From Bacteroidales bacterium (GTDB lineage Bacteria > Bacteroidota > Bacteroidia > Bacteroidales > Salinivirgaceae): a stretch of DNA of 64,000 nucleotides. Numbering within the stretch: the stretch's first letter is position 1; the number at the start of each line of letters is the position of its first letter. Positions 9,679 through 46,468 of the stretch are shown here, piece after piece. The notes below the pieces were generated by a model. The model did no database searches. It was not told the origin of the DNA and saw only the letters and a program-made list of their open reading frames with translations. The stretch spans positions 1 through 64,000 of the forward strand of contig JAAYQU010000047.1 of assembly GCA_012519055.1 (NCBI GenBank), read 5' to 3'. A program made the position numbers and the translations under genes.

Positions 9679-9735
9679 AGACAAAAGACAGAAGAGTGTT
9701 ATTAACAATTCGTAACTTGTTGAAATAAACAACTA

Positions 9736-9755
9736 TAACGCCTTTCAAGGCGTTA
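9736..9755. repeat. Palindrome TAACGCCTT-TC-AAGGCGTTA
   Basis: This 9-bp perfect stem with a two-base centre stands in the gap before tag. It is similar in size and style to the palindromes at 20971-20990 and 21180-21199. On the plus strand it is followed by AAAAAATTTT rather than a T-run, so a terminator role is uncertain. It is followed at about 9764-9790 by pyrimidine heptads of the TACCTTT type. Confidence 0.7.
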
Positions 9756-9821
9756 AAAAATTTTACCTTGCTCCTTTTACCTTTTACCTATAAAAGCGTT
9801 ATAAACAAATAGTTAACAATC

Positions 9822-20056: not shown

Positions 20057-20920
20057 ATGAGAACTACTATATTGTTGATAATTATGCTATTAAGCTCAAA
20101 TATTTTAATGTGTCAAATGCGGACATATACCATTTATGACAAAACTGGAAAAGAGCTTGATTTTGAAGAGTTGGTAAACGTATCCCTTAAATCGGAATTG
20201 GTTTTCTTTGGTGAGTTGCATAATAACTCGATTGCCCACTGGCTACAAATAAAAATGCTTAAATCATTCATAGAGGCTACCGACCGCCAAATAGTTGTTG
20301 GAATGGAGATGTTTGAATCTGATGATCAGACACTTATTGATGAGTATTTAAACGGTATTATTCCGGAACGGAACTTTGAAGAGGAAGCTAAACTATGGTC
20401 AAACTACAAAACTGACTATAAACCTATAGTTTTGGTTGCTAAAGAGCATAAAATACCTGTTATTGCAACAAATACTCCCCGCAGATACGCTGCAATGGTT
20501 AATCGTGGTGGGTTTGAGGCTTTAGATAATCTAACCGATGAGGCAAAACAATTAATCGTCCCTCTCCCATTTGCTTTTGATGCGGAGCTACCAGGATATA
20601 AATTGATGACAGAAATGTCCCCAATGCAAAGCGTGAAAATAAATGTAGAGAACTTAGCTAAAGCTCAGGCATTGAAAGATGCAACTATGGCGCATTTTAT
20701 ACTTAAAAACCTCAAAGACAGAGGCTTGTTTTTCCATATCAACGGCATTTACCATACGAAAAACAACGAGGGTATTTTGTGGTATATTAACAATCAACTA
20801 AAAGGGGTGAAAATTACAACTATTAGCACAATTACGGTTTTGGATATAAACTCTGTTGATACTAGCGAGTTACAAACAGCGGATTTTACTATTTGTATAG
20901 ATTCTGACTTTAGCAATTAA
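20057..20920 (+). CDS. ChaN family (haem-binding uptake, Tiki superfamily) exported protein
   Basis: The 287-residue protein has a signal peptide (about 1-19). The ChaN/DUF399 signatures are VFFGELHNNSIAHWLQ, VGMEMFESDDQ and PVIATNTPRRYAAMV. Campylobacter ChaN binds haem, and the wider Tiki fold includes metalloproteases. The E-x-H in GELHNN is the conserved metal or haem site. There are no neighbours for iron uptake, so the substrate is open. Its last codons (AGC AAT TAA) are already part of a heptad repeat array. Confidence 0.8.
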   Translation: MRTTILLIIMLLSSNILMCQMRTYTIYDKTGKELDFEELVNVSLKSELVFFGELHNNSIAHWLQIKMLKSFIEATDRQIVVGMEMFESDDQTLIDEYLNGIIPERNFEEEAKLWSNYKTDYKPIVLVAKEHKIPVIATNTPRRYAAMVNRGGFEALDNLTDEAKQLIVPLPFAFDAELPGYKLMTEMSPMQSVKINVENLAKAQALKDATMAHFILKNLKDRGLFFHINGIYHTKNNEGILWYINNQLKGVKITTISTITVLDINSVDTSELQTADFTICIDSDFSN

Positions 20921-20946
20921 CAATGTGCAATTAGCAATGAATAATT
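20912..20946 (+). repeat. Heptad array across the ChaN stop codon
   Basis: Five in-phase units AGCAATT, AACAATG, TGCAATT, AGCAATG, AATAATT begin six bases before the stop codon, so the final Ser-Asn and the TAA are encoded by the repeat. Confidence 0.9.
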
Positions 20947-20963
20947 AAATGGCTGATTTTCAC

Positions 20964-21206
20964 TCAATTGCCACGACTTTTAAGTCGTGGAATAGGTTAC
21001 ACACAGAAAATAGGCTTTAGCCCAAACTTACTTTATTTTCAGGTTTTGAAAGTCATAAGCCTTAATAAACTCATTGTATTCATCTGCAAAAGTTTTTCTT
21101 TTTTGATGCTCTTCCTGATTGACCATGTAAGCCGTTTTTTATAGATTTAGGCTAAAGCCATTTTTAATTCATTTATTATCCGTGCCTTAAAAGGCACGGC
21201 AATTGA
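20964..21206. mobile_element. Internally deleted REP/IS200-type element (243 bp) with palindromic ends
   Basis: The left end reads TCAATTGCC followed by a palindrome (20971-20990, CCACGACTT/AAGTCGTGG). The right end is the inverted counterpart (palindrome 21180-21199, CCGTGCCTT/AAGGCACGG, then GCAATTGA). Compared on one strand, the two ends agree over about 29 bases, and their differences keep each palindrome paired. A second inverted pair lies inside (GGCTTTAGCC at 21013-21022, GGCTAAAGCC at 21150-21159). The interior keeps only the 3' end of a Y1 transposase on the minus strand. It fits a MITE-like derivative of a RAYT element. Confidence 0.7.
21028..21138 (-). pseudogene. C-terminal remnant of a REP-associated tyrosine transposase
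   Basis: On the minus strand an open frame from 21138 to the TAA at 21028-21030 reads MVNQEEHQKRKTFADEYNEF, then IKAYDFQNLKIK and stop. The NQEEH-x-KKTF-x-EEY pattern is the characteristic C terminus of Bacteroidetes IS200-like/RAYT Y1 transposases. The catalytic HUH and tyrosine parts are absent, and a stop codon lies just upstream in the frame (21139-21141). This is therefore a relic, too short to be functional. Confidence 0.7.
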
Positions 21207-21213
21207 TATTCTA

Positions 21214-22152
21214 TCACGGAATTTGACTCTCAATTATTGCTATATTGCTAATTCGTGCTTGCAAAATTTGTATATACTCTAAAGCTGGGGCAAATCCTAT
21301 CTCTTTAGATTTTTGAGCAAATTCAAGGGCTTGGAGTAAAACTCCCTCTCTTTCGCATTTCACTGCTAAATTGTAATTTGCTTTTCCTGCAAGATTTTTA
21401 TTTCCACTATCCGAGTACCTACTCCATAAGTCCTCGGCTTTATCCCATTGATTTGAACTAACATAGCTTTTTGCCACAACAAAATCATTATTTCCCGAAG
21501 TGAAAATATAACGATAGGTTTGATTCCAATGCGGAGAAATAGTTTTAGCAAATTGTTTGCCACACCTGTTAACTATATGATTTACAGCCTTGTGAAAATC
21601 AACAAGATCATACAAAGAGTTATAAGAAGTTTTTACACCTTCAACCCATACGGTATCGTGATAGTAGCGTTGGTAAACTGTTTGGTTATTACTATTCAAT
21701 ATTTCCCATGCAACCTTATATTCAACCATTACAGCCGATACGTAAAGTCTTGTATAATAGTCGCGTGTAGGTTCTTGAAGTACTTCTGTTTTTAAATCCA
21801 CCAATTTTAGCTCTATGCGATTATTGTTGCTGAGATTTGAATTGAAAGTTGTATCAACACGGGCAAATTCAAATCTTTCCGATTCTGCTAAAATATTATA
21901 AGCTGCTCTAACACACTCAAAAGAGAGTAAACTATCTAACTGCCATTTCTCATATTGCTTGTTTGAAACAGGCTTTGGATTAGTAATAAAGTGCTTATTT
22001 ACTAAATCAACATTTCTAACATTAAGATTTATAACTGTGTCGGCAGGTCTTAGCACTTCAAAATATACTCTGTCAACCACTGTACAAGAGTTGAAAAATA
22101 TTAGTGTTGACAGTAAGGTACCAAAAACAAATATTAAACTTTTCGATTGCAT
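21214..22152 (-). CDS. Lipoprotein, DUF6340-like, with TPR-like C-terminal half
   Basis: The 312-residue protein has a lipoprotein signal ending FFNSC (about C23). The first mature residues (VYFEVLRPADTVINL) and a later paired-Tyr region (YYTRLYVSAVMVEYKVAWEI, YQRYYHDTVWVEG) match my memory of the DUF6340 family of Bacteroidia lipoproteins. The last 90 residues contain helix pairs (AKSYVSSNQWDKAEDLWSRY, AVKCEREGVLLQALEFAQKS) of TPR type. A strong AGGAGG (complement of 22162-22167) precedes the ATG. It follows the VWA gene by 34 bases and may share its transcript. The function is unknown. Confidence 0.7.
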   Translation of the reverse strand: MQSKSLIFVFGTLLSTLIFFNSCTVVDRVYFEVLRPADTVINLNVRNVDLVNKHFITNPKPVSNKQYEKWQLDSLLSFECVRAAYNILAESERFEFARVDTTFNSNLSNNNRIELKLVDLKTEVLQEPTRDYYTRLYVSAVMVEYKVAWEILNSNNQTVYQRYYHDTVWVEGVKTSYNSLYDLVDFHKAVNHIVNRCGKQFAKTISPHWNQTYRYIFTSGNNDFVVAKSYVSSNQWDKAEDLWSRYSDSGNKNLAGKANYNLAVKCEREGVLLQALEFAQKSKEIGFAPALEYIQILQARISNIAIIESQIP

Positions 22153-46349: not shown

Positions 46350-46468
46350 ATTGCCCTTTATCTTAATTGGGGTATATCATTTAACCACACCAAAAAATAC
46401 AAGTCAGGACATACATCAACCCATTCCACAACTTAAAAGTCGTTGCTATTAATCTGACAATCACCTCA

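Follow-up and report, generated by a model that had tools for sequence, protein, structure and literature searches.

A probable internally deleted 243-bp transposon derivative in a Bacteroidales genome and the REP/transposase pairing that it exposes

Results

Anatomy of the 243-bp element

The window analyzed in this work, i.e., the whole 64-kb stretch of DNA, contains a 243-bp element that fills the gap between two convergent genes, a ChaN-like gene (20057-20920, plus strand) and a DUF6340-like gene (21214-22152, minus strand), both named as in the initial annotation, which was made from sequence only. That annotation had placed the element exactly, and the two perfect palindromes in inverted positions that it described are present. 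The features of the element and the related features of the window are as follows, left and right being given in the orientation of the transposase:

20964-21206: whole element, 243 bp, bounded by TCAATTG and CAATTGA
20964-20970, plus strand: right-end outer tag TCAATTG, 5' foot of the hairpin (consensus in the family, T[CG]AAT[TA]G)
20971-20990, plus strand: right-end 20-nt palindrome CCACGACTTTTAAGTCGTGG, perfect, 9-bp stem
20959-21036: right-end covariance-model unit (E = 3.6e-15; in the training set of the model)
21013-21022, plus strand: right-end inner conserved motif GGCTTTAGCC
21028-21129, minus strand: C-terminal relic of a Y1 transposase, 33 codons beginning with the catalytic Tyr and followed by a TAA stop
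21150-21159, minus strand: left-end inner conserved motif, GGCTTTAGCC on the minus strand (given as GGCTAAAGCC at the same site)
21180-21199, minus strand: left-end 20-nt palindrome CCGTGCCTTTTAAGGCACGG, perfect (given as CCGTGCCTTAAAAGGCACGG at the same positions)
21136-21211: left-end covariance-model unit (E = 6.0e-13; in the training set of the model)
21200-21206, minus strand: left-end outer tag, TCAATTG on the minus strand (CAATTGA)
46394-46457, minus strand: further unit of this REP family, decayed (E = 1.7e-6)
9724-9796, plus strand: weak candidate unit (E = 0.037) containing a perfect palindrome of 20 nt at 9736
20916-20933, 6898, 6982, 45814, 46470, and 1271, and 95304-95405 of the same contig: AT-rich repeat ATTAGCAATGTGCAATTA

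Each end is a bipartite unit in which TCAATTG and the adjoining 20-nt palindrome, whose stem has 9 bp, are separated by about 22 nt from GGCTTTAGCC, both copies of the latter pointing inward; this inner inverted motif (21013-21022 and 21150-21159) had been overlooked in the initial annotation. The terminal symmetry reported there was confirmed, but the stretch common to both termini amounts to 27 nt, 7 from the tag and 20 from the palindrome, instead of about 29. Perfect 20-nt palindromes (9/9 pairs, at least four of them GC) occurred three times in the window, two of them being the ends of the element and the third the one at 9736, in contrast with a mean of 0.2 and a maximum of 1 in 20 shuffled windows. 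As a single strand the element folded better than its shuffles (z = -4.5; 0/200 as good), the predicted fold comprising the two end hairpins and the inner motifs paired with each other.

The transposase remnant lies between the two inner motifs and runs on the minus strand from the Tyr codon at 21127-21129 to the stop at 21028-21030 (YMVNQEEHQKRKTFADEYNEFIKAYDFQNLKIK), thus covering 33 codons and including the catalytic Tyr motif. Its ORF was the sole significant match, among 2,423 ORFs of the window, to an HMM of the clade of 11 relatives described below (32.1 bits, E = 1.4e-8); the next-best ORF reached 5.9 bits (E = 1.6) and the best of 2,000 shuffles 9.0 bits. It fitted this clade better than an HMM of other Y1 genes (25.6 bits) and aligned to the C-termini of the 11 full or near-full transposases, the window copy retaining the last 33 codons and missing about 115 N-terminal ones. 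Judged from these scores, the homology of the remnant to Y1 transposases is not due to chance. The initial annotation was right about this homology and one codon short in its count of 32; the opposite outcome that it had considered, namely that these codons have nothing to do with Y1 transposases, did not hold at 32.1 bits.

The ends as a REP family of the host genome

A blastn search of the own genome with the element (283-bp query) yielded 49 matches up to E = 10, of which 17, self included, had E ≤ 1e-4. The parts that recurred at those E-values were the ends and not the coding interior, except for the last codons in one sibling element. Alignment of 22 units showed them to be built as TCAAT[AT]G, 20-nt palindrome, spacer, and TTGGGCTTTAGCCCAA; mean column identity of the own-genome units was 65%, and they are old. 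Over these 22 units, 91.8% of 352 cells (97.0% in the outer helix) were base paired as compared to 84.8% after shuffling, and both sides had changed in 20 cells vs. 6.5 in shuffles, none of 500 shuffles being as high. This covariation supports the view that the stems have been preserved.

A covariance model (R1) trained on own-genome units, both ends of the window element included, recovered 28 units from the own genome (E ≤ 0.01), so that the ends are multi-copy and the single-copy outcome considered in the initial annotation did not occur. All 27 assessable units were intergenic (one more was too near a contig end), 16 of them in convergent, 10 in tandem, and one in divergent gaps. Counted by site, the convergent share was 13 of 24, as compared to 4 of the 27 gaps of the window, a small baseline taken from one 64-kb stretch (p = 8e-6). 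Such a bias would suit bidirectional terminators or RNA-stability hairpins, selection for such a role and not transposition preserving their stems, which would be compatible with an origin from a transposon. We consider this function unlikely: the outer hairpins carry no T-run, a terminator scan gave a single terminator-like site, located at the inner motif (0.4 expected in shuffles), no Rfam family matched at gathering score, and the transposase gene linked to the units would be left unexplained.

An AT-rich repeat with a period of 14 bp, ATTAGCAATGTGCAATTA, was found at 84 places of the genome with up to two mismatches (reversed control, one). Of the 28 REP units, 12 have it 13-41 bp from the tag side and two have it on the inner side, where random positions would give 0.09 such proximities, a figure in which intergenic bias is not controlled. 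The repeat may serve as a target, belong to a larger unit, or occupy a common niche.

A clade of Y1 transposases bearing ends of the same plan

The Pfam family Y1_Tnp was present in 46 of the 60 genomes compared, the own genome included. The sample comprised 91 Y1 loci, weaker Y1_Tnp matches falling mostly outside it, and 82 of them gave rows long enough for a tree. Matches of the REP covariance model to the 91 loci (41 at E ≤ 0.5) fell almost entirely on one set of genes; these genes together with L142 formed a single clade in the tree of 82 proteins (SH-aLRT 99), and support for the same clade was 100/99 in a careful tree of 73 of the 82 rows, from which nine long or divergent rows had been dropped beforehand. 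A screen independent of the model, accepting any 20-nt palindrome with at least 8/9 pairs and four GC pairs within 250 bp of the gene, found a palindrome on at least one side of all 11 clade genes vs. 7 of the 71 other Y1 genes, and on both sides of 7/11 vs. 4/71 (Fisher p = 2.4e-5).

Full-length relatives with the end anatomy of the window element exist in other genomes, with other stem sequences. Locus L040 is a complete transposon, which reads CACCGCCTTTTAAGGCGGTG, GGCTTTAGCC, gene, GGCTAAAGCC, and CCCCACCTTGAAAGGTGGGG. Copies with an intact transposase, as sought on the proposal of the initial annotation, were therefore found, but in other genomes and not in the own one. Left and right ends have diverged separately in L040, L046, and L054, whereas one stem is common to both ends in L111 and L196. 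The initial annotation had taken the different stems at the two ends of the window copy as compensatory changes that keep the structure; preservation of stems agrees with the covariation over 22 units, but, in view of those loci, the difference between the ends of this copy does not on its own demonstrate such changes within it, and may descend from different source ends instead of repeated compensatory mutation.

Two non-clade Y1 genes, L136 and L151, also displayed well-formed palindromes on both sides (CCGCGGGTTTTAACCCGTGG and CCGACGACTAAAGCCGTCGG, in genomes G038 and G051, respectively), and other Y1 branches may bear REP-like ends too. Directly downstream of the transposase gene of L044 (genome G040), at positions 1951-2235 of the locus, eight palindromes of 18-20 nt follow one another in tandem with a period of about 38 nt.

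A scan of a collection with one genome per species gave at least 581 confirmed relatives among 591 stretches, and the best 80 of the 581 were analyzed. Most of these 80 were from Bacteroidota (Flavobacterium, Chryseobacterium, Cyclobacterium, Algoriphagus, Chitinophagaceae, and Bacteroidales), and a few were labelled Pyrinomonadaceae or Acidobacteria, Ignavibacteria, Calditrichia, and Chlorobiota; since many records are MAGs, some of these labels may be binning errors. Palindromes were located upstream of 49, downstream of 65, and on both sides of 39 of these best 80 loci, as compared to 0.43 per side and none on both sides with shuffled flanks. When the ends of the 80 loci were aligned on the palindrome nearest to the gene within 160 bp, T and A surrounded the two central bases in 41/41 left and 64/64 right ends, although the filter demanded complementarity of this pair and not T-A; the outer pairs were mostly CC/GG, most hairpin feet read AAT[TA]G, and GGCTTTAGCC appeared again about 22 nt inside. 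One Flavobacterium-type palindrome pattern occurred in eight of nine genomes searched, with a control of 0 in all of them.

Paired ends and partly deleted copies

Units of the own genome are mostly solo, 22 of the 28 not being in pairs. In counts covering 150 of 212 unit matches plus the 28 own units, close neighbours were inverted in 35 of 39 cases among the matches listed, 24 facing inward and 11 outward; inward pairs, most of about 176-198 bp and some near-identical, were found in genome G027 and outward pairs in G017. The own genome presents a series of three inward pairs at different stages, with 33 codons in the window, the last few codons on contig C35, and a more eroded remnant at the same place on contig C21. 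Both siblings are shorter than the window element, keep the same transposase 3' end and, in a short alignment, seem to have one deletion in common.

The predominance of solo units, together with the preference of REPs for convergent gaps, would also allow the window element to be two unrelated solo units that came to lie in one gap, the 33 codons being a stray gene fragment. This is very improbable, given that the remnant sits exactly where the L040 gene has its 3' end, with GGCTAAAGCC beside its stop; the two sibling pairs, each with a left-type and a right-type end in the same order, bring such a coincidence close to refutation. Derivation from a transposon by internal deletion agrees in turn with locus L155 of G027, a partly deleted gene with an intact relative (L104) in the same genome, where a 12-nt imperfect direct repeat marks the ends of one of the deletions. 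The partly deleted copies support a putative route from transposon to paired ends.

The window copy itself would have arrived at its place by insertion. DUF6340 was found in all six genomes of the family, the own one included, and ChaN near it in the own genome only; no syntenic ChaN-DUF6340 gap, and with it no empty site, was found in the relatives, where ChaN is not adjacent to DUF6340.

State of the family in the host

A clade profile search of the own genome, an assembly of 53 contigs, found no intact clade transposase and matched only locus L031 and the window relic (E = 2.6e-6 for the relic); an intact clade gene may lie in an assembly gap. Mobilization of the relic by a RAYT elsewhere, as suggested in the initial annotation, found no support in the own genome, which contains no intact clade transposase and, in L031, a gene of another branch with different ends. 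Among the 60 genomes, the clade gene was present in 10 (in the tree), nine of which also contained units, and units occurred without a clade gene in 18 of the other 50, the own genome included. Therefore, either gene loss with persistence of the units is common or weak genes were missed; genome by genome, units and transposase are loosely linked, which frequent loss of the gene would lead one to expect. The family looks orphaned in the own genome and, for this reason, the window relic is probably inert.

The only Y1 gene that is intact in the genome is L031 (contig C21, 69903-70543; 1384-2024 of the locus). Its ends consist of inverted TTGTCCGTAGGACAACATGTGATTAA beside the palindromes CCGTAAGATTTATCTTACGG and CCATAGGCTTACGCCTATGG, which differ from the REP family, and the end motif was found at three places only in the genome, two being its own ends and the third a further copy at C14:14114. 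L031 was rejected as mobilizer on the basis of its position outside the clade, its different ends, and the three places of its end motif.

Class of the parent transposase

Six of eight proteins, among them five of six clade proteins, scored above the cutoff of 55 of the NCBIfam model NF033573 (IS200/IS605), with L031 (49) and L132 (53.8) below it. The NCBIfam RAYT model NF047646 (cutoff 80 bits) gave 24.6-38.5 bits in seven of the eight and none above the cutoff. The closest solved chains include the ISHp608 transposase and others named only transposase, and the E. coli TnpA_REP structure 4ER8 was absent from the nine solved-chain matches at E ≤ 0.01, which fits the IS200/IS605 rather than the RAYT class. 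The signature Y---Q--HH (Y114, Q118, H121, and H122) was invariant in nine proteins. By sequence, the parent transposase is of the IS200/IS605 class, RAYT-like in its behaviour and not in its class. The initial annotation had called the element a relic of a RAYT/REP transposon: internal deletion and palindromic ends are borne out by the full-length relatives, the 33-codon homology, and the two siblings, but assignment to RAYT is not, with scores below the RAYT cutoff.

The scores with NF033573 and the match to ISHp608 would also fit a plain IS200/IS605 insertion sequence decayed in place, with ordinary subterminal hairpins and no REP biology. We regard this as improbable. The ends are inverted with their tags outward and are dispersed both as solo units and as inverted pairs without a gene, whereas the gene is of low copy, with one per genome in the 10 clade-bearing genomes, except for two unlike genes in G007 and the additional, partly deleted L155 in G027; multi-copy near-identical full-length elements, as in IS200/IS605 class 1.1, were not found in these genomes.

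Discussion

A relationship between REPs and IS200-like element ends has been assumed, but the known RAYTs are already far from IS200. The element described here very probably arose from a Y1 (HUH) transposon by internal deletion and is non-autonomous; solo ends of this transposon constitute a REP family that looks orphaned in this genome, with hairpin- and tag-directed movement as the presumed mechanism. At full length the transposon has its Y1 gene between two ends, with tag, outer hairpin, spacer, and GGCTTTAGCC in this order before the gene and GGCTAAAGCC, spacer, a second outer hairpin, and a tag after it; as REPs, its solo ends are scattered over the genome, mostly in convergent or tandem gaps. 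On single-stranded DNA each end could fold into a hairpin that, together with the AAT[TA]G tag, would be bound by the clade transposase; its Tyr would nick near the foot of the hairpin and the enzyme would move ends or pairs of ends. The transposon would turn into MITE- or REPIN-like pairs by loss of its interior, short direct repeats having bounded the deletion in one case.

The relic itself is an ordinary element, of a known sort, since relics that consist of ends and keep the 3' end of an ORF are already known as PATEs (excerpts of PMC7290912). As in the 271-nt PATE of IS200/IS605 from Halanaerobium hydrogeniformans, both ends and the last ORF codons are kept after an internal deletion (58 nt of tnpB in that copy according to those excerpts, 33 Y1 codons here), but the ends described here are inverted bipartite units that are also dispersed as solo repeats. 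Both ends resemble those of autonomous elements from other genomes and there is no intact transposase within, as in MITEs and PATEs. Its interest resides in the REP/transposase pairing that it exposes.

This pairing shares with REPIN/RAYT systems (TnpA_REP, class 2) the dispersed intergenic palindromes, a short 5' tag, inverted pairs, and a low-copy flanked Y1 gene. It differs in the tag, AAT[TA]G taking the place of GT[AG]G (the latter being absent from the hairpin foot, where the consensus is T[CG]AAT[TA]G), in a transposase of IS200-like class with Y---Q--HH, and in a second, nearly invariant inner motif, GGCTTTAGCC. Its features in common with subclass 1.2 of TnpA_Y1 (Quentin et al. 2018; PMC6006769) are Y---Q--HH, IS200-like character, low copy number, and occurrence in Bacteroidetes; Table 1 of that study gives no REPs for the subclass and the text generally no terminal secondary structures, whereas the branch described here has both REPs and terminal palindromes. 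The automatic REP search of that study was built on GT[AG]G, a tag absent from the present units, which could therefore have been missed.

With slightly better than even confidence, we propose a third REP/transposase system, of the IS200 class with Y---Q--HH, that would extend across Bacteroidota and to records labelled Acidobacteria, Ignavibacteria, and Calditrichia. It would have a REP superfamily of its own, defined by AAT[TA]G, a fast-diverging 20-nt palindrome, and nearly invariant GGCTTTAGCC, and would form REPIN-like pairs via internal deletion, being an intermediate between IS200/IS605 and RAYT/REPIN of which the relic and its siblings would be frozen steps. The system is apparently undescribed: among the matches listed from open-licence literature on RAYT/REPIN, REPs, IS200/MITE, and Bacteroidetes none described this family of REPs, neither Nunvar 2010 nor Nunvar 2013 contains the word Bacteroid, and excerpts of a 2024 paper on Chryseobacterium (PMC11194056) name 'RayT' genes and mention no REPs. 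An IS200-class transposase is here tied to dispersed REP-like units across a phylum, with partly deleted copies indicating a route from transposon to paired hairpins. Bacteroidota would gain a REP/transposase pair amenable to testing and an explanation for a class of their intergenic hairpins.

The GTAG- and CGTC-tagged REPs, as presented in excerpts of Di Nocera (2013; PMC3733652), are likewise tagged intergenic palindromes that form dimers, but neither tag fits the present units; CGTC REPs are described in those excerpts as having no dedicated transposase. A CGTC-1-like REP palindrome (GTCATCCCCGC-GAAG-GCGGGGATC) was found nested in the end hairpins of two clade elements of G027 (L104 and L155; C102 and C168), and its core pattern occurred at 10 places in that genome and at none in seven others.
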